A DNA stretch of 37,360 nt from Ignavibacteriales bacterium (GTDB lineage Bacteria; Bacteroidota; Ignavibacteria; T3Sed10-11), in assembly GCA_003568415.1 (NCBI GenBank), contig PWXV01000292.1, positions 1 to 37,360 on the forward strand, in the 5' to 3' direction. Shown piece after piece: positions 15,001-24,336 of the stretch (the stretch's first letter is position 1; each line of letters begins with the position of its first letter). The position numbers were made by a program, and so were the translations under genes. Below the pieces are notes generated by a model. The model was given only the letters and a program-made list of their open reading frames with translations. It made no database searches and had not been told where the DNA came from.

Positions 15001-16449
15001 CTAATTATTTTTTAATTCAAACGAAAACGTACTTCCCTTACCGGAAGTACTGGATACATTGATTTTACTGCCATGAGCTTCAATGATATGTTTTACAATG
15101 GCAAGGCCGAGACCCGTGCCGCCCACTTCCCGCGACCGGTCACGATCAACTCTGTAAAACCGTTCGAAAATGCGCGGCTGGTGTTCTTCGGCAATACCGA
15201 TACCGGTATCGCTGACTTTTATCCGCACTGTTTCTTTTTTTTGCTCAAAACTAACTATTACTTCACCGTACGGTTTATTATATTTAATTGCGTTGTCAAC
15301 AAGATTACGCATTACCTGAAGCAACCGTTGCTTATCGCCATATGCCTGTACTGCATCTGCATTAACCGGATAACGGCCGCGCAAGACTATATGATGCTGC
15401 TCGGCAACGGGGTGCATTTCACGTATCACGTTTTCTAGAAACTCCTTCACCGGAAAATTATGGAAGCTCATTTTCATCTCACCAGACTCGATCTGGGAGA
15501 TGTTAATCAGATCTCCGAGTAGATTATTAAGCCGCGTAGCGTGTGAATATGCTTTTTGAAGAAACTCGCGGTTTACCTCCACATCATCGACTGCTCCGTC
15601 AAGCAGCGTTTCAATATATCCCTGCAATGAAAAAATAGGGGTGCGAAGTTCGTGCGATACGTTACCGAGAAACTCGCTCCGGAATTTCTCAAGCTTCTTC
15701 ATTCTTCCGATATCGGTATTTACTTTATCGAGTAAATCGTTGAGCGTCCGGGCAACCATACCGACCTCATCGTCGGTACGAATCTCGACCCGTTTTTCAA
15801 GTTTGCCCTGACGGATATCTTCAACACTTTTTGCAAGATCAACTATCGGTTCAGAGATTTTCCGGGAAAGCACAACACTGACAGCAAGGACTAAAAGCAA
15901 TACCGTTAATCCAGCAATAAAAATTATTGATCGTATTTCGTTCACATTCCGGTGTACATCATCAAGCGGGGCAGCAATTCGAATAATATGAACGGTAGTT
16001 AGCAGTTCGGTTGATGGGTCGTGTGAAATTCGCCGTGCAACATACATAAACTCGCGGTCAACTGTTGCACTTTCCCGCTTCACCACCCCCGTTCCTTCAC
16101 TCATAGCTATACGTATTTCGGGACGGTTAAAATGATTTTCCACTTCGGTAATTTGCTCGAAGGGTACATCCGAGTCGGCAATCACAGTTCCGTCGGCACT
16201 AATCACCGATATACGTACAGTTTCGAGTTCTGCAATAGTTTTTATTCTGCTGTCAATCTGTTGCGCATCGACAATAGATTCTTCCTGTATTATAAGCGAG
16301 ACTACGTTTGCAAGTGTCTCAAGACTGGTAACGAGACGGTCATGAAAATATGATTCTATCTTAACACTGGAAGTAATACCCAACGCCACTACCACAACAA
16401 AGGTTAGCACAACATAGGTGAGCGTAATTTTTGACCGGATCTTTTTCAT
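15001..16449 (-). CDS. phoR: PhoR-like sensor histidine kinase
   Basis: A 482-aa membrane kinase. TM1 (residues 8-27) and TM2 (174-195) enclose a periplasmic sensor region of about 145 residues (a Cache-like fold is possible). A HAMP domain follows (196-245), then the HisKA dimerisation domain with phospho-acceptor His266 (FLGNVSHELRTP). The ATPase domain has an N box with Asn386 (RNLVDNAIKYN), G1 DTGIG (414-418) and G2 GGTGLGLA (443-450). I see no clear PAS domain between HAMP and HisKA, although many PhoR proteins have one. The gene begins three bases after the response regulator gene, so the two form a cognate pair. The signal is inferred only by homology to PhoR-type kinases; no phosphate transport genes are nearby. 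Confidence 0.88.
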   Translation of the reverse strand: MKKIRSKITLTYVVLTFVVVVALGITSSVKIESYFHDRLVTSLETLANVVSLIIQEESIVDAQQIDSRIKTIAELETVRISVISADGTVIADSDVPFEQITEVENHFNRPEIRIAMSEGTGVVKRESATVDREFMYVARRISHDPSTELLTTVHIIRIAAPLDDVHRNVNEIRSIIFIAGLTVLLLVLAVSVVLSRKISEPIVDLAKSVEDIRQGKLEKRVEIRTDDEVGMVARTLNDLLDKVNTDIGRMKKLEKFRSEFLGNVSHELRTPIFSLQGYIETLLDGAVDDVEVNREFLQKAYSHATRLNNLLGDLINISQIESGEMKMSFHNFPVKEFLENVIREMHPVAEQHHIVLRGRYPVNADAVQAYGDKQRLLQVMRNLVDNAIKYNKPYGEVIVSFEQKKETVRIKVSDTGIGIAEEHQPRIFERFYRVDRDRSREVGGTGLGLAIVKHIIEAHGSKINVSSTSGKGSTFSFELKNN

Positions 16450-16452
16450 ATC

Positions 16453-17145
16453 CTACATTTTAAAGCGGTATCCCACACCTTTAACTGTTTCAATGTAATT
16501 GCCATATTCACTGAGCTTCTCGCGGATTTTACGGATATGAACATCGACGGTTCGGTCGACGACAACGACATTTTCTCCCCATACCGCATTTAATAATACT
16601 TCGCGTGAAATAACTCTCCCGCGATGGCTTGCAAGATACACCAGTGTTTCAAATTCTTTCTTCGGTAAAACTAATTCCTGTTTACCAATCTTAACGGTAT
16701 AATTGGGTATATTAATTTCCATGCCTTCAATCGATAGTATATCCTGCACTGTCTCTCCGGGTGTGTCGAGGATTTCTTTTCGTCGCAGCGCAGTCTTTAC
16801 CCGTGCGATCAGTTTACGGATACTGATCGGTTTTATGATATAATCATCAGCGCCGAGTTCAAGTCCGACGACCTCATCGACCTCCGATCCTTTTGCCGTT
16901 AAAAATATAACGGGAATAGTCGAAGTACGTTCATCCTTCATCAACTGCTTGCATACTTCCCATCCATCCATCTCGGGCATCATAATATCGAGTAAAATGA
17001 GATCCGGTTTGTTCTCCCGTGCCTGTTCAAGAGCCCGTATACCATTCAGTGCAGATATGACCGAATAACCTTCTTTCTCGAGGTTATACTTTAACATCTC
17101 AACGATGTCTTTTTCGTCGTCGACAACTAGTATTTTCTTTGGCAT
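16453..17145 (-). CDS. phoB: PhoB-like response regulator (OmpR family)
   Basis: A 230-aa two-domain regulator. The receiver domain (3-120) has the acidic pair Asp9/Asp10, phospho-acceptor Asp53 (LLDIMMPEMDGWEV), Thr83 and Lys105 (the K of YIIKPIS). A winged-helix DNA-binding domain follows (about 135-230), with SREVLLNAVWGENVVVVDRTVDVHIRKIREKL and a C-terminal VKGVGYRFKM typical of PhoB/OmpR proteins. The length is normal. It follows dnaB by 21 bases and precedes phoR by three. It is PhoB-like by sequence, but the true regulon is unknown because no Pho genes surround it. Confidence 0.9.
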   Translation of the reverse strand: MPKKILVVDDEKDIVEMLKYNLEKEGYSVISALNGIRALEQARENKPDLILLDIMMPEMDGWEVCKQLMKDERTSTIPVIFLTAKGSEVDEVVGLELGADDYIIKPISIRKLIARVKTALRRKEILDTPGETVQDILSIEGMEINIPNYTVKIGKQELVLPKKEFETLVYLASHRGRVISREVLLNAVWGENVVVVDRTVDVHIRKIREKLSEYGNYIETVKGVGYRFKM

Positions 17146-17166: not shown

Positions 17167-18612
17167 TTAAAATGGTGCCGGTCCTTCATCCTCTTCGGAA
17201 CTGTCTGCCGGCTGATAGCCGGTGAATTGTTTGAGTGCCAGATTCTCGAACCGTGCGTATGACTTGATAAACGACATTCGCGCCGTATCCACAGGTCCGT
17301 TACGCTGTTTACCGACTATGATCTCGGCAATACCTTCGGTAGATTCTCCACCCTCTTCCTTAATGCCGTACGATTCAGGCCGATGTACAAACGCGACGAC
17401 GTCTGCGTCCTGTTCGATTGCGCCGCTTTCACGTAAATCGGCAAGCTGCGGCCGTTTATCGCTCCGTGCTTCTACCGCACGGTTTAACTGCGATAATCCT
17501 AACACCGGCACATCGAGCTCTTTTGCAAGTGCTTTTAAAGAACGGGAAATCGCTGAGATTTCACGCTCGCGGCTGTCCAAACCTTTCGGCCCCTGCATTA
17601 ACTGAAGATAATCGACTACAACCAGGCCGATATTATGTTCTGCTTTGAGACGCCGGGCTTTTGCACGCAGTTCAAGTATCCCGAGGGACGGAGTATCGTC
17701 GATGAATAATTTTGCCCGGGCAAGTTTTCCGATTCTGGTACTTAAGTACTGCCATTGATCTTCAGGTAAACGACCGGTACGTACTTTATGTTGATCGACC
17801 CGCGCTTCTGCACATATGAGACGAAGTACGAGCTGTTGCGATGACATCTCAAGACTAAAGAACGCAACCGGCACATCGTACTCTACCGCAGCATTACGCG
17901 CCGCCGAAAGAACAAAAGCAGTTTTCCCCATCGCAGGTCTTCCGGCAACAACGACGAAATCGGATTTCTGAAATCCACCCAATATATTATCAAGTGCGGT
18001 AAATCCGGACGGTACACCGGTAATGCCGCTGTGCTTACCGTGAATGCTCTCAAGCATCTCCATTGTTTGATGAAGCGCTTGATTCATTGAGATGAAACTT
18101 CGTTTGAGATGCTGTTCGGATATTTTAAATATTTTCTGTTCGGCTTCGTCGAGAAGATCGAATGCATCTTCGGAGTCCTCATATGCTCTGCCCGATACTT
18201 CATTTGAGGATGCAATAAGCTGCCGCATCAGGGCTTTTTCGAGAACGATCTTCGCGTGGTATTCAATATTGGCGGCAGAGGGGATGCGATTTGTTAACTC
18301 GGTCAGGTAATATGAGCCGCCGACTTTCTCGAGCACACCCCGGCGGCGAAGTTCCTCGGTAAGCGTCACAAGATCAACCGGCTCACTACGATCGAACAAA
18401 GCAACCATAGCCTGGAAGATAAGCCGATGCGCTTCTTTGTAGAACGCATCTTCGTTTAAAAGATCAAGCGCGCGAGCAATCGCTTCTTTTTCGATAAGCA
18501 TTGCTCCGAGCACCGACATCTCGACATCGACCGCCTGCGGCGGCACACGTCCTTCGCTTCGGTAACTATCGGATTCCGTTTGTCGTTTTTGTGTTGGATA
18601 TATTTCTGCCAT
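17167..18612 (-). CDS. dnaB: Replicative DNA helicase DnaB
   Basis: A 481-aa hexameric helicase that unwinds DNA 5' to 3' at the replication fork and recruits primase. The N-terminal domain (residues 24-130, PPQAVDVEMSVLGAMLIEKE) is followed by a linker and the RecA-like ATPase, with Walker A GRPAMGKT (224-231), SLEMSSQQLVLRL, the Walker B stretch LVVVDYLQLM, and RESGAIEQDADVVAFVHR. No intein is present, which is worth stating because dnaB is a frequent intein site. The C-terminal tail is acidic. It sits 21 bases after udg and 21 before phoB in a continuous minus-strand series. Confidence 0.97.
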   Translation of the reverse strand: MAEIYPTQKRQTESDSYRSEGRVPPQAVDVEMSVLGAMLIEKEAIARALDLLNEDAFYKEAHRLIFQAMVALFDRSEPVDLVTLTEELRRRGVLEKVGGSYYLTELTNRIPSAANIEYHAKIVLEKALMRQLIASSNEVSGRAYEDSEDAFDLLDEAEQKIFKISEQHLKRSFISMNQALHQTMEMLESIHGKHSGITGVPSGFTALDNILGGFQKSDFVVVAGRPAMGKTAFVLSAARNAAVEYDVPVAFFSLEMSSQQLVLRLICAEARVDQHKVRTGRLPEDQWQYLSTRIGKLARAKLFIDDTPSLGILELRAKARRLKAEHNIGLVVVDYLQLMQGPKGLDSREREISAISRSLKALAKELDVPVLGLSQLNRAVEARSDKRPQLADLRESGAIEQDADVVAFVHRPESYGIKEEGGESTEGIAEIIVGKQRNGPVDTARMSFIKSYARFENLALKQFTGYQPADSSEEDEGPAPF

Positions 18613-18633: not shown

Positions 18634-19455
18634 TTAATCGTGTATTAATGAACCATAATAATTCCTGAACGCCTTCATATCCTCCCACATCGTCTTTTTA
18701 AAGTTCGGGTTGCGGAGCAGCGCTGCGGGGTGATACACTATGATCATCGGGATTCCAAGATAATCGTGTATCTGGCTGCGTAACGAACCCAACGGATCGC
18801 CCGTCCGTAAAAGCGTTTGCCCCGCGATGCGGCCGAGTGCAAGAATGATCTTCGGTTTAATAAGTTCAATTTGTTTATGAAGATACGGCTCACACTGCTC
18901 CACTTCCATCGGCTGCGGATCGCGGTTATTCGGCGGACGGCATTTTAGAATGTTGCATATATAGACTTCCTCACGCTGCAACCCCACTGCTTCAAGTATT
19001 TTATTTAACAATTGTCCGGCACGACCGACGAACGGTTCACCCTGGCGGTCCTCATCGGCACCGGGAGCTTCGCCGATCAGCATGATATCAGCATTTGGAT
19101 TACCTACACCGAACACGAATTTTGTTCGCGTCTTCCCGAGCGGACATTTCATACAGGTACAGATCTGCTCGTTTAAAAAATCCACGGTGTCTGCACTCAT
19201 CCAATCTTCGTGCACGGCAAACAGTGATTGCGTAACCGGTGATGTTCTGCCTGTTGTTAATTTTGTTGTGGTTTCATAGCCAGCTGTATTTTCGCTTTCT
19301 TGTTTCGTTGGTTTATCCTCCGGTTGTATGTTGGTCGTATTTTCTTGCTTTTTTTCATTCTGCGTATTCAGGTACAATAATCCGCCCGACAACTCGGATT
19401 GAAACTTCAAAAACCGTTTAACATCGTCGACTAGATTTGATACTTTATCATCCAT
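18634..19455 (-). CDS. udg: Family 4 (iron-sulfur) uracil-DNA glycosylase
   Basis: A 273-aa DNA repair enzyme that removes uracil from DNA. Motif A is [20 protein letters not shown] (128-147) and motif B is HPAALLRNP (242-250). The cysteines expected to hold the [4Fe-4S] cluster in family 4 are present: two of Cys99/101/104 (CTCMKC), then Cys172 (KCRPP) and Cys188. The N-terminal 80 residues are an extra low-complexity Gln/Thr/Lys-rich arm absent from minimal family members of about 200 aa; the same arrangement is common in SPO1-type/UdgA annotations. The start overlaps the end of coaBC by eight bases, indicating translational coupling. Confidence 0.93.
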
Positions 19456-20653
19456 TGATACAATCCAGTATTTTGTGTGCAGCTTCGAACTTGCTCATCA
19501 AAGGATACTCTTTTACTTTTCCGTTTTTGTCGAGAATTTGTATCTCATTTGTATCGCTCCCGAATCCCGATCCCTCTCTGGTTGGATTATTGATCACGAT
19601 ATAGTCCAGCTTTTTCTTCTCTAATTTTTCGCGTGCATGTGCGAGTTCATTTTCAGTTTCAAGTGCAAAACCGATCACGGTGCGTTCATCCTTATGGTCA
19701 CCGATAAACTTGAGTATATCATCTGTCTGTTCGAGCTTTATTTCCGGTACATCCCGGTCATTTGTTTTCTTAATTTTTTGTTTTTCAGAGGACGCCGGGC
19801 GAAAATCAGCAACTGCTGCAGCCATAATGATGAACTGATGACGTTCATATTCCCGTTGAACTGCCCCAAACATTTCCGCTGCAGATTCAACATCGATACG
19901 CTGCACTCCCTGCGGTGTTTCGAGTGATGACGGACCACTGATGAGCGTGACATCCGCACCGCGCTGTACCGCCGCTTTTGCAATTGCATATCCCATTTTA
20001 CCCGATGATCGATTACCGATAAATCTGACAGGATCTATCTTTTCGTACGTGGGTCCTGCCGTCACAAGTACCTGCACACCGGAGAGATCTTTTTGAGTAC
20101 CGGCAAGTGCCGATTCAATTTTCTCAAGTATCGGCTGGAGTTCGGGTAATCTACCGGGACCGCTCAAACCGCTTGCAAGTTCACCGGTTTCCGGTTCGAT
20201 GATAATGCAGCCGCGATCCTGTAATACACCGATGTTGTTTTGGGTTGCCGGATGCCGGTACATATCAAGGTCCATCGCGGGTGCAATGAGTAACGGACAA
20301 CGAATAGAAAGTGCGGTTGATGTTAGTGCGTTGTCGGCGATGCCGGTTGCAAGTTTTGCAATCGTATTAGCCGAAGCTGGAAGAATGAGCGTCAGATCCG
20401 CCCAGAGTCCGAGGTCGACGTGTTTTACTCCGAGATCGGTGCTCTCGTGCGTCGATTTTGGCCAGAGGGATACGATGACTTCATGCTGTGACAGCGTAGA
20501 AAGCGTCAGCGGTGTAATAAATTGAGTAGCCGAGTGCGTCATTATAACCCGCACATCGGCTCCCAGACGTTTGAGCTCCCGTACTATGTATGCCGCCTTA
20601 TATGCGGCAATGCCGCCGGTTACACCAAGCAGTATTTTTTTATTTTTTAGCAT
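19448..20653 (-). CDS. coaBC: CoaBC, phosphopantothenoylcysteine synthase/decarboxylase
   Basis: A 401-aa bifunctional enzyme for two consecutive steps of coenzyme A synthesis. The CoaC half (1-185) is a flavoprotein with VTGGIAAYKA and catalytic His78 (KHVDLGLWADL). It has the APAMDLDMY loop, with Asp where E. coli has Asn125, and a flap ELASGLSGPGRLPE carrying Ser161 at the position I align with E. coli Cys158. These substitutions look like FCB-type CoaBC rather than damage. The CoaB half (190-401) has VLVTAGPTYEKIDPVRFIGNRSSGKMGYAIA and AAAVADFRP. The gene follows rpoZ by 43 bases and overlaps udg by eight. Confidence 0.96.
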   Translation of the reverse strand: MLKNKKILLGVTGGIAAYKAAYIVRELKRLGADVRVIMTHSATQFITPLTLSTLSQHEVIVSLWPKSTHESTDLGVKHVDLGLWADLTLILPASANTIAKLATGIADNALTSTALSIRCPLLIAPAMDLDMYRHPATQNNIGVLQDRGCIIIEPETGELASGLSGPGRLPELQPILEKIESALAGTQKDLSGVQVLVTAGPTYEKIDPVRFIGNRSSGKMGYAIAKAAVQRGADVTLISGPSSLETPQGVQRIDVESAAEMFGAVQREYERHQFIIMAAAVADFRPASSEKQKIKKTNDRDVPEIKLEQTDDILKFIGDHKDERTVIGFALETENELAHAREKLEKKKLDYIVINNPTREGSGFGSDTNEIQILDKNGKVKEYPLMSKFEAAHKILDCING

Positions 20654-20696: not shown

Positions 20697-21008
20697 TTAC
20701 TCTTCCTCGTCCTCTTCTTTATAGCGGAATTCAATATCACCGCGAAGGAATTCTGCAATTGAGAGCTCGGTCGGTTTCGGCAGTTTCTCAAACTCCACAC
20801 TGATACGAACCTGATCCGGATTTACTCCGTCTTCACCCTCTTCAGAATCACCCGTCGGCTGTGCAGCTAATTGTTCAATACGCTGATTGTATTGAATTTT
20901 TAATTCCTCGTTCAATTGTCGTGAACGTTTGCCCATAGCCACGATCGCTTCATACAAGCTCGAACTTGCTGCTTCGAGTTCCTCCAGATTAATTGGTTTT
21001 ACCGCCAT
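20697..21008 (-). CDS. rpoZ: RNA polymerase omega subunit
   Basis: A 103-aa small subunit that helps assemble and stabilise RNA polymerase beta-prime. The core LEELEAASSSLYEAIVAMGKRSRQLNEELK (residues 8-37) matches the omega fold with the RSRQL motif. The C-terminal third is acidic (RYKEEDEEE) and longer than E. coli omega's conserved core, as in many FCB species. The gene has a good ribosome binding site (AGGAGA). Its place between gmk (12-base gap) and coaBC is the classic arrangement. Confidence 0.92.
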   Translation of the reverse strand: MAVKPINLEELEAASSSLYEAIVAMGKRSRQLNEELKIQYNQRIEQLAAQPTGDSEEGEDGVNPDQVRISVEFEKLPKPTELSIAEFLRGDIEFRYKEEDEEE

Positions 21009-21020
21009 AGCAAATCTCTC

Positions 21021-21602
21021 CTAATTAGTAACTGAATGTATTTCATTGTGTACAATTTTATTAACTTCATGAATAGCTTTATCAAGATCGTCATTCACTA
21101 TCGAATAATCAAACAATTTCCCTTTCTCAAGTTCCATTGGTACCCTTTGAAGCCGGCGTTCTAATTGCTCTACCCCTTCCGTTTTTCGCCCTCGAAGCCG
21201 TTTTTTTAAATCTTCAAGGCTCGGTGGTTTAATAAAGATAAGCACCGTGTCGTCGGGATAATGTTTCTTGATTGACAGTCCGCCGTTAACATCAATATCA
21301 AATAATATCACTTTTCCGCTCTCAAGTGCCTCATCAATAACACGTTTTAATGTACCGTAGCAATCACCGTAAATCTCTTCCCACTCAACTAGCTCATTAT
21401 TGTCAATCGCCTTCCGGAACTCATCCTCCGTCAGAAAAAAATAATGCTTCCCGTGTACTTCATTGCGACGCTTCGTCCGCGTCGTTGCCGATACCGAAAA
21501 GATAAACTCCGGGTTACGCCGTAATAATGCATTGGTGATTGTTGTCTTTCCGCATCCGCTCGGAGCTGAAATTACAATAAGTTTTCCACGCCCGTGTGTC
21601 AT
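21021..21602 (-). CDS. gmk: Guanylate kinase
   Basis: A 193-aa kinase converting GMP to GDP with ATP. The P-loop is SAPSGCGKT (12-20). Further family markers are SATTRTKRRNEVHGKHYFFL, EWEEIYGDCYGT, ILFDIDVNGGLSIKK and the LID region LRGRKTEGVEQLERRL. The length is normal. The ATG overlaps the yicC stop by four bases (ATGA), so translation is coupled. Confidence 0.97.
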   Translation of the reverse strand: MTHGRGKLIVISAPSGCGKTTITNALLRRNPEFIFSVSATTRTKRRNEVHGKHYFFLTEDEFRKAIDNNELVEWEEIYGDCYGTLKRVIDEALESGKVILFDIDVNGGLSIKKHYPDDTVLIFIKPPSLEDLKKRLRGRKTEGVEQLERRLQRVPMELEKGKLFDYSIVNDDLDKAIHEVNKIVHNEIHSVTN

Positions 21603-22477
21603 TCGATATTCTGAATTTGTTCACGTATCCGCTCGATTTCTTCTTTCATGCCGATCACCAATTGTGAAATTTCGGTATCGCTTGCCTTCGAGCCAATGGT
21701 ATTGATCTCACGATGCATTTCCTGAATGAGGAAATTCAATTTGCGTCCGCTCGGATCATTCGAATCGATTGCATCGTTGAAATATTTCAGGTGCGACCGT
21801 AAGCGCACACATTCCTCGGTCACATCCAGCTTATCGGAAAGCAAAACCAGTTCAAGTTCAAGCCGTTGCTCATCAACTTCATCTGAATTAAGGAGCTGGT
21901 ACACACGCTCACGCAACCGCTCACGTTCTTCGGGAATACGCTCCCTGGATTTAGCTTCTATTCGATCCACCGAACGTCCGATATTCTCCAGCCGCTGCTT
22001 CATATCGACTTCAAGCTCGGCACCTTCGTTCTTGCGCATTGTTTGCAGTTGCTGTAGAGCTTCATCGACCGACCTGACAACTGCATCCCACTCTTCATCG
22101 GGTAGCGAGTCCTCCGAATCGGCATCAAAGATTTCGGAGAATTGTAAGAGGTGTTCTATTTTGATCGACTCACGAAGCTTCAGTGTTTTTTTTAAATCAT
22201 TCAGCAAATGATAATATGCTTTTGCCTGCGGCGGATTCACTTTTATAGGAACTGCCCCATCATCTGCCGTTTCAAGGGTGATCGTAATGTTTACCTTACC
22301 CCGGGAAAGATACCGCCTGGAAATCTCTTTCAATTCCTGCTCGCGTAATGCAATTACTTTCGGGGCACGGACTGATACCTCGAGAAATCTGTTATTGACG
22401 CTTCTGGCTTCGGTGATCGCGGTGTATTTTCCGCCTTGTGCTTCGCCCCGGCCGTAGCCGGTCATACTTAATATCAT
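21599..22477 (-). CDS. yicC: YicC family endoribonuclease-like protein
   Basis: A 292-aa protein beginning MILSMTGYGRGEA and ending with LNFLIQEMHREINTIGSKAS, both diagnostic of the YicC/YloC family. E. coli YicC has been reported as an endoribonuclease acting on RNA. The central region is a long charged helical segment. It is the first gene of the eight-gene minus-strand unit. The ATG at 22477 has no strong ribosome binding site, so regulation by the upstream gap (22478-22680) would affect the entire operon. Confidence 0.93.
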   Translation of the reverse strand: MILSMTGYGRGEAQGGKYTAITEARSVNNRFLEVSVRAPKVIALREQELKEISRRYLSRGKVNITITLETADDGAVPIKVNPPQAKAYYHLLNDLKKTLKLRESIKIEHLLQFSEIFDADSEDSLPDEEWDAVVRSVDEALQQLQTMRKNEGAELEVDMKQRLENIGRSVDRIEAKSRERIPEERERLRERVYQLLNSDEVDEQRLELELVLLSDKLDVTEECVRLRSHLKYFNDAIDSNDPSGRKLNFLIQEMHREINTIGSKASDTEISQLVIGMKEEIERIREQIQNIE

Positions 22478-22577
22478 ATTGCTCGCTGTAAGTGTGTCTA
22501 AGATAGCTAATATATGAAAAAAACGTTATATTATCCATACGGTAACCGGTTGTTTTTCACACAACCTTTGCACACAG

Positions 22578-22672
22578 AACTCCACAAAACGACAGAGTTT
22601 TCCACATTATTTCCACAGCAAAATTTGCCCACTGGCACTGTTTTTGCTAACTTTTACAAAAAATGTGGAATA
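22578..22672. promoter_or_regulatory. Cluster of DnaA-box-like TCCACA motifs
   Basis: In the divergent gap between yicC and the NFACT gene, AACTCCACA (22578-22586), TTTTCCACA (22598-22606) and ATTTCCACA (22609-22617) lie in the same orientation. TATTCCACA lies on the minus strand at 22664-22672. The consensus DnaA box is TTATCCACA, and TTTTCCACA is a known functional variant in cyanobacteria. Four near-matches in 95 bases next to an operon containing dnaB and gmk is suggestive, but no dnaA or dnaN gene is here. Confidence 0.4.
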
Positions 22673-22680
22673 CGTGACCT

Positions 22681-24336
22681 ATGATCAATAATTACTATAC
22701 CTTACGGGAAATAATCCGGGAAGCGGTTCCATATCTCAGGGAAGCCGAAATCACCGAATGCTACACCCAGGAGCGCAACCGGCTTGTGATAACCTCATCG
22801 GGCTCGGAGAAAAAAAGTATCATTATTTCCTGTGAACCCCGTCAGAATTTTCTGTACCTGCGTGACATGGTGCGCCGGGCACGTAAAAATACTTTCGATA
22901 CGCTGCCGAACATCCGCGGAAAAAAAATTTCACATATCGAACTCCACCCTTCCGACCGGCACATTACAATGTTTCTCGATGATGTGACACTTGTTGTTAT
23001 CCAATTATTCGGTGCCCGCTCCAATGTATATGAAACAGGCGAGGATGGGGTCATCCTCGATTCGTTTTTACGTACAAAAGATATTGCAGGCAAATATATC
23101 GAGACACCGAAAGAAGTACCGCAGGCCCCCGACAGCTATGAAAAATTTCAAGAGTATATTTTTACTTATAGAGATTCAACGCTTAAGGACTCGCTGAAGA
23201 AACGGCTGGTATTATTCGGTGCACCGCTTCACCGGGAGCTTGCTGTCCGATCCGGAATAGATCTTGATACCAAAATTCAGGACATTGCACCTGAAGCATG
23301 CACCGATCTCTGGAATAGCTTTGTTGAAATAATGGAAGAACTGAACGAACCGTCGCCGCGAATATACTACGAAAACGACACACCGGTCGAGATGGGGCTG
23401 ATCCATCTTGCACAACACTACGGTAAACCGGAGCGACCGTTTCAATCCTGTTCCGATGCAGTGCGGATGTTTGTGAATGTTTCACACAAAAAAAGAAATA
23501 TCGAAAACGATAAGAAAGAAATTCACACAAGGCTTTCGAATGAACTGAAAAAAGCAGAACGTGCCGTTAATGCAATCAACAAGGAACTATCGCAGGGTGA
23601 CCGGTCGACCGAGTATGAACATATCGGAACGGTGTTAATGGCATATCCTCACGAAGAGACCAAAGGCAAACAAACAATAGAGTTACGGGACATTGCCGAC
23701 AGCGATACAACAATTAAAATACAGGTCGATCCCAAGCTATCAACTATCCAAAATGCCGAACGGTATTTTGATAAAGCAAGAAAAGCTCGCGGAGCACGAA
23801 AAGAAGCAGAACGCCGCGCCTCATCGGTTGAAAAAAGATTGCATACATTAGAAAATCTTATCGATGAACTTGACTCGATCGACGACCCGAAAGAATTGAA
23901 ATCGTTTTTCAGAAACAATCAAAAGATATTGACATCCATCGGAATACGTATGACAAAGGATTCGAAAGAAGAAATTCCCTTCCGCACTTTTCGTGTGGCC
24001 GGTGATTATGAAGTATGGGCGGGCAAAAGCAACACGAATAACGATTTGCTCACAATGAAGTATGCAAAACCGCACGATCTCTGGTTTCACGCACGAGGTG
24101 CCAGCGGCTCACACGTAGTATTGAAAACCGGCGGGAGTAAAGACAGCGTACCGAAAGAAGCAGTGCAACAGGCGGCATCGATCGCGGCATATTACAGCAA
24201 GATGAAGACATCGAAGCTCGTACCCGTTGCAATGACCGACCGGAAATATGTGCGGAAACGGAAGGGCGATCCGCCGGGAACGGTCGTACTATCACGGGAG
24301 AAGGTAATTATGGTTGAGCCGGGTCTGCCGGAATGA
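22681..24336 (+). CDS. rqcH: NFACT/RqcH-type ribosome quality control protein
   Basis: A 551-aa homologue of Rqc2/RqcH/FbpA proteins, which bind stalled 50S subunits carrying peptidyl-tRNA and add C-terminal alanine tails to the nascent chain. The NFACT-N domain begins NNYYTLREIIREAV and contains Asp92-Arg93 (HPSDRHI), matching the conserved Asp-Arg pair (Asp97/Arg98 in B. subtilis RqcH) needed for tRNA engagement. A charged helical and coiled-coil middle follows (about 270-420). The NFACT-R domain has EVWAGKSNTNNDLLTMKYAK, HDLWFHARGASGSHVV and RKRKGDPPGTV. The length matches the family (about 550-580). It is transcribed divergently from the yicC operon. Confidence 0.93.
   Translation: MINNYYTLREIIREAVPYLREAEITECYTQERNRLVITSSGSEKKSIIISCEPRQNFLYLRDMVRRARKNTFDTLPNIRGKKISHIELHPSDRHITMFLDDVTLVVIQLFGARSNVYETGEDGVILDSFLRTKDIAGKYIETPKEVPQAPDSYEKFQEYIFTYRDSTLKDSLKKRLVLFGAPLHRELAVRSGIDLDTKIQDIAPEACTDLWNSFVEIMEELNEPSPRIYYENDTPVEMGLIHLAQHYGKPERPFQSCSDAVRMFVNVSHKKRNIENDKKEIHTRLSNELKKAERAVNAINKELSQGDRSTEYEHIGTVLMAYPHEETKGKQTIELRDIADSDTTIKIQVDPKLSTIQNAERYFDKARKARGARKEAERRASSVEKRLHTLENLIDELDSIDDPKELKSFFRNNQKILTSIGIRMTKDSKEEIPFRTFRVAGDYEVWAGKSNTNNDLLTMKYAKPHDLWFHARGASGSHVVLKTGGSKDSVPKEAVQQAASIAAYYSKMKTSKLVPVAMTDRKYVRKRKGDPPGTVVLSREKVIMVEPGLPE

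Follow-up and report, generated by a model that had tools for sequence, protein, structure and literature searches.

The gap between yicC and rqcH raises the question of what a cluster of DnaA-box-like sites may be doing between two divergently transcribed genes, one of which opens a row that includes the replicative helicase gene dnaB. The locus lies in an Ignavibacteriales genome, and the window hereafter means the whole stretch of DNA that was analysed, 37,360 nucleotides of contig PWXV01000292.1. DnaA is well established as a transcription factor, according to excerpts of a review (PMC8203912), and a sequence-only reading of the window had proposed that it could regulate the unit carrying dnaB from this cluster, or that the cluster could titrate DnaA. 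DnaA operators outside oriC are known from a few model species, and the lineage considered here is represented in this analysis by draft genomes only.

The divergent gap and its boxes

The gene calls of that reading were correct, with gmk and dnaB in one row on the minus strand that diverges from an rqcH-type gene on the plus strand (Table 1). In B. species naming, rqcH and yicC are yloA and yloC. The 103-aa ORF had no Pfam or NCBIfam match, and its slot between gmk and coaBC is presumably that of rpoZ in other bacteria. The complete row, yicC-gmk-ORF-coaBC-udg-dnaB, is kept in four of four f12 contigs. A PhoB/PhoR-like two-component pair (window 15001-17145, minus strand) follows dnaB with short gaps and may share its unit.

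A sequence scan located TCCACA on the plus strand at 22581-22586, 22601-22606 and 22612-22617, and the inverted TGTGGA at 22664-22669. This confirms the cluster of three direct motifs and one inverted motif that had been described, with direct start spacings of 20 and 11; all four hexamers fall within 89 bases. The whole window holds 19 TCCACA-type hexamers (12 plus, 7 minus), and in 300 dinucleotide-preserving shuffles of it the best cluster of the same span contained one hexamer (148 shuffles), two (149) or three (3), but never four. When the gap alone was shuffled 3000 times, the maximum count was two, reached in seven shuffles. Sites within one mismatch of TTWTCCACA show no global excess in the window (27 versus a shuffle mean of 22.3), and five of the 27 lie within the 203-base gap, at 22531, 22553, 22598, 22609 and 22664. 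The sole full TTWTCCACA in the gap is that at 22598-22606, so that three of the four boxes are imperfect. Counted between their starts, the second direct box and the inverted one are 55 bp apart.

Counted across the window genome, TTWTCCACA occurs 89 times versus 92 times for the backward-read pattern, which is no excess. Direct TCCACA pairs 2-22 bases apart number 18 in the genome; two of them belong to the window cluster and one lies in the gap upstream of dnaA, where nothing but a 61-aa reading frame covers it. The other 15 are inside ORFs of 118 aa or more, which were mechanically called and are no proof of genes; one of these pairs (L238) sits right where its frame begins, and another (L243) lies in a frame of only 118 aa.

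A promoter scan that found two such sites, with 1.0 expected, yielded the predicted yicC promoter, TGGATA-17-TATATT. In three congeners a box-like site, TTATCCATA in the window, overlies its -35. The possible rqcH promoter in the window is absent from the results of the promoter scans.

Table 1. Genes, predicted promoters and DnaA-box-like sites around the yicC/rqcH gap (window coordinates).
Feature	Position	Strand	Remark
dnaB, replicative helicase	17167..18612	-	sixth in row
udg, family-4 uracil-DNA glycosylase	18634..19455	-	
coaBC	19448..20653	-	
103-aa ORF	20697..21008	-	kept in row
gmk	21021..21602	-	
yicC	21599..22477	-	first gene of row
Divergent control gap, yicC (-) / rqcH (+)	22478..22680	.	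divergent pair also kept in relatives
Predicted yicC promoter, TGGATA-17-TATATT	22509..22537	-	consensus match only
DnaA-box-like TTATCCATA	22531..22539	+	over predicted yicC -35; 8/9 positions invariant; reads TTATCCACA in congener G002
Weak DnaA-box-like TTTTTCACA	22553..22561	+	one-mismatch TTWTCCACA match
Weaker DnaA-box-like AACTCCACA	22578..22586	+	hexamer 5/6 positions invariant
DnaA box TTTTCCACA	22598..22606	+	first of 11-bp direct pair; hexamer 6/6 invariant, three congeners
DnaA-box-like ATTTCCACA	22609..22617	+	second of direct pair; one off consensus; hexamer 6/6 invariant
Possible rqcH promoter, TTGCCC-17-TAACTT	22625..22653	+	by eye; weak; f12 counterpart stronger
Inverted DnaA-box-like TATTCCACA	22664..22672	-	one off consensus; hexamer 6/6 invariant; f12 counterpart
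rqcH, NFACT / ribosome quality control	22681..24336	+	divergent from row

The native box and its conservation

The dnaA gene of the window genome lies on another contig and is followed by dnaN. Its product has the N-terminal, AAA+ and C-terminal domains, and the C-terminal DNA-binding domain (PF08299) is normal, at 105 bits. Upstream of dnaA, TTATCCACA occurs three times, and the boxes in the window gap match this native box, one as a full TTWTCCACA and the rest with one or more departures from it. A different box sequence at the oriC of this species had been named beforehand as refuting the idea of DnaA boxes in the gap; the boxes upstream of dnaA were in keeping with the idea. Within a genome, the inverted site of rqcH often seems to carry the same box variant as dnaA. 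For instance, both read TTATCAACA in G026, G169 and G266 and TTATCCACA in G017 and the window's genus, while G130 and G230 are among several mixed genomes.

Within the window's genus, the gap is present in two of the five other genomes (G002 and G005), the other three being less complete and without an rqcH or yicC match. In the resulting three-way alignment, the hexamers are invariant at 23 of their 24 positions and the rest of 22540-22680 at 42 of 117 (hypergeometric P about 2e-8). A second conserved block, at 22496-22538 (39 of 43 positions invariant), holds the yicC promoter match. A lack of conservation of the four motifs in related genomes had likewise been named as refuting; instead, both G002 and G005 share three of the four hexamers unchanged, and a related layout occupies the same gap in family f12.

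A fixed register with the predicted rqcH promoter in family f12

In all 20 f12 rqcH upstream regions, TATATT is followed by the inverted site, and in 17 of them an exact GTKGATAA comes right after it (the exceptions are G295, G237 and G303). A TTG-type -35 hexamer at 16-18 bp was the best match in 14 of the 19 f12 gaps scanned. Where both boxes are within one mismatch, the second direct box stands exactly 53 bp before the inverted box in 14 of 16 gaps; the remaining two spacings are 54 (G230) and 48, the latter containing undetermined bases (G321). This spacing is constant across f12 genera although the intervening bases differ. The boxes of f12 are in fixed register with the predicted rqcH promoter; in the window's genus the scans found no rqcH promoter, and the box-like site there overlies the predicted yicC -35. 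In most f12 gaps the best match to a yicC promoter precedes the first box, and some matches (in G260, G266 and G149) touch one.

We also considered whether TATATT followed by a box might be a general trait of f12 promoters, and rejected this: a search of 22 genomes gave TATATTGTKGATAA at rqcH and nowhere else, with a single copy in 19 of them (17 f12 and 2 f18). The other eight matches of the searched pattern read TATCTT or TATTTT and are located elsewhere.

Distribution in wider relatives and natural rearrangements

A degenerate pattern, consisting of the direct pair and the inverted box, was run over 391 genomes of the class and matched 34 of them, versus 7 for the backward control. The 36 places matched comprise 14 yicC gaps (3 in f1, 10 in f12 and 1 in f18), 9 places upstream of dnaA (all in f7) and 13 elsewhere, which we take as chance. 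Of the 20 f12 genomes, 10 do not match the strict pair pattern; in several of these genomes the first direct box is degenerate (TTCACA or similar), and thus the full pair is not general in f12. In f18, where 13 of 14 genomes were read (G376 holds part only), perfect TTWTCMACA occurs in five of the 12 gaps with a divergent rqcH and in none of the other seven, and the single f3 gap contains no perfect TTWTCMACA either.

The matches upstream of dnaA come from nine genomes of one f7 genus (L038-L046), in which two TCCACA-type boxes 11 bp apart and an inverted box read away from dnaA, with rpmH further along, as judged by eye from L045 alone. This layout may be part of oriC there. We set it aside as support for the present site, given that gaps upstream of dnaA are rich in boxes and that one genus amounts to one case. 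Single matches in coding sequence also occur, as G101 and G026 each carry TATCTTGTTGATAA inside a 476-aa gene that is apparently shared between them (L271 and L272).

Further relatives were taken from the best 80 of 589, of which 36 were examined and 23 entered the tree. Of the other 13, four (L153, L154, L159 and L160) duplicate genomes that the tree contains, and the remaining nine (L174, L178, L179, L202, L205, L206, L209, L215 and L224) all lack a perfect TTATCMACA in the gap. For the perfect-box comparison, G280 and G321 were left out, as their yicC matches are in two pieces, and G295 was scored as rqcH-adjacent because the gene's first residues could be read where the contig ends. Perfect TTWTCMACA, in one or more copies, was found in 26 of 35 yicC gaps with a divergent rqcH versus 3 of 25 without it, but once shared ancestry is allowed for, two independent pairs on supported branches remain (sign test p 1), and this contrast is therefore a description and not a test. 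The nine rqcH-adjacent gaps without a perfect box belong to f18 (seven), f3 (one) and f12 (one). Together with the 22 of 25 other gaps that have none, they led us to reject the idea that every yicC gap has such boxes. Nor does every rqcH gene have them, as 18 of 18 examined genomes in which rqcH is not beside yicC have no perfect box within 260 bp of rqcH; this check covered 18 of the 22 such genes, G014, G019, G023 and G028 being left out because the match missed the gene start.

Natural rearrangements separate the two candidate targets of the site. In G130, the row is whole and about 14 kb separate rqcH from yicC; there is no box at the yicC gap, and TTATCCACA is found before the displaced rqcH in both senses, 54 bp apart. 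In G108, L155 and L157, by contrast, the boxes remain at yicC with rqcH elsewhere, and the rqcH genes of these genomes have no perfect box within 600 bp upstream. In the L155 genome, rqcH is split over two contigs and has one one-mismatch site at -386. Thus, neither side owns the boxes in all lineages. As a side observation, the divergent gene beside the boxes in L155 and L157 is an ORF that by eye resembles an MBL-fold (RNase J/CPSF-type) protein, and in G108 (L283) the box cluster and rqcH are about 2.9 kb apart, with a 556-aa ORF and repetitive sequence between them.

A candidate DnaA operator and the alternatives

We consider it probable, at roughly 60%, that the gap is a DnaA operator controlling the divergent transcription of rqcH and of the row from yicC to dnaB. 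The sequence, its clustering and conservation and, in f12, the register with a predicted promoter are observed; the binding of DnaA and the sign of the regulation are inferred. DnaA would bind one or both direct boxes together with the inverted box about five helical turns away, and it would probably adjust transcription at the gap rather than start replication. In f12, where the inverted box directly follows the predicted rqcH -10, bound DnaA could block RNA polymerase, and high levels of free DnaA would then lower rqcH transcription. Where the geometry is clear, that is, in f12, rqcH appears to be the better-supported target. In the window's genus, the box-like site over the predicted yicC -35 suggests that the dnaB row may be controlled too, and so the link to the helicase may hold. 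The supply of RqcH, guanylate kinase and helicase might in this manner be tied to the DnaA pool.

The proposal that the dnaB unit is the target stands in part. The conserved row in f12, the box-like site over the predicted yicC -35 and the boxes that stay at yicC in G108, L155 and L157 speak for it, and the f12 geometry at the rqcH promoter and the boxes at rqcH in G130 speak against it. A bolder extension, which we put forward tentatively and regard as doubtful, is that in this deep Bacteroidota/Ignavibacteriota lineage the initiator directly represses rqcH, so that the free DnaA pool would set the level of ribosome-associated quality control and, together with the gmk-dnaB row, a single DnaA switch links initiation, helicase supply and the rescue of stalled ribosomes.

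Several alternatives have to be weighed against an operator of this kind. The boxes could titrate or convert DnaA in the manner of datA or DARS, setting the timing of initiation with the promoters incidental. The persistence of boxes at yicC without rqcH in the three rearranged genomes would fit this, as would their distance of 18-22 kb from dnaA in the four f12 contigs that hold both loci. However, the boxes are few and mostly imperfect in the window, they accompany the displaced gene in G130, and the f12 inverted box is fixed to the rqcH -10, a register that counts against pure titration since a titration site need not keep it; we thus regard this reading as unlikely. The same 18-22 kb bear on whether the gap might be the chromosomal origin or a second one. 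GC skew had been proposed as a means of placing oriC, and in 4-kb bins its cumulative minimum lies at dnaA in all four f12 contigs that carry the two loci (two whole contigs, 60 of the 85 kb of G266 C16 and 80 of the 165 kb of G130 C1). We therefore rejected oriC at the yicC/rqcH gap for f12, and oriC itself is most likely at dnaA. For an origin at the gap, one could invoke the sign change of GC skew near 22-23 kb in the window and the similar layout upstream of dnaA in the nine f7 genomes of one genus; however, that sign change tracks the switch in gene orientation and is not sustained further to the right, on a contig that stops short of the genome's own dnaA, and we give an origin almost no credence.

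It is also conceivable that the boxes serve the yicC-gmk-...-dnaB row alone, with DnaA working at the yicC promoter or from a position upstream of it. Such an arrangement would be consistent with the retention of the row in the four f12 contigs, with the box-like site over the predicted yicC -35 in the three congeners and with the boxes in the 3 of 25 yicC gaps that lack rqcH, and the DnaA regulon of Caulobacter crescentus includes dnaB with predicted boxes, as given in excerpts of the review (PMC8203912). But 22 of those 25 gaps have no perfect box, G130 has the whole row with none at yicC, and most f12 yicC promoter matches precede the first box, though those of G260, G266 and G149 touch one; we consider exclusive service to the row even less probable than titration. 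That the cluster is chance or inherited sequence without function would agree with the lack of a genome-wide excess of TTWTCCACA and with the 7 of 12 rqcH-adjacent f18 gaps that have no perfect box. It is nevertheless very improbable in view of the cluster statistics, the conserved hexamers and the f12 spacing, which is constant despite the differing bases between the boxes.

If the DnaA operator that we favor is real, it would connect replication initiation with ribosome quality control in a concrete way that can be tested. The candidate recurs across genera of its lineage, with a near-fixed layout in f12. A literature search for DnaA together with RqcH returned no paper joining both, going by titles, and a term search of the available text of the DnaA review (PMC8203912) gave no mention of rqcH, yloA or yicC.

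Comparison with known systems

The following comparisons draw on excerpts of the published accounts. In E. coli, a DnaA box lies between the promoters dnaAp1 and dnaAp2 of dnaA (PMC8203912). The f12 site resembles regulated promoters of this type, which have consensus boxes at the promoter, in that its box lies at the start region of a predicted promoter; it differs in its candidate targets, rqcH and yicC, and its boxes are putative binding sites. In the B. species system, DnaA likewise directly regulates neighboring genes, but the gene list given in the excerpt is without rqcH (yloA) or yicC (yloC). The E. coli datA and DARS loci are also chromosomal DnaA-binding sites away from oriC, whereas the f12 site is tied to a predicted promoter. 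Finally, the C. crescentus dnaB gene, with its predicted boxes, offers a parallel for a possible coupling of DnaA to helicase supply. In the present case, however, the boxes stand ahead of a whole row of genes with dnaB in sixth place, they lie in a divergent gap, and in f12 their register is with rqcH.
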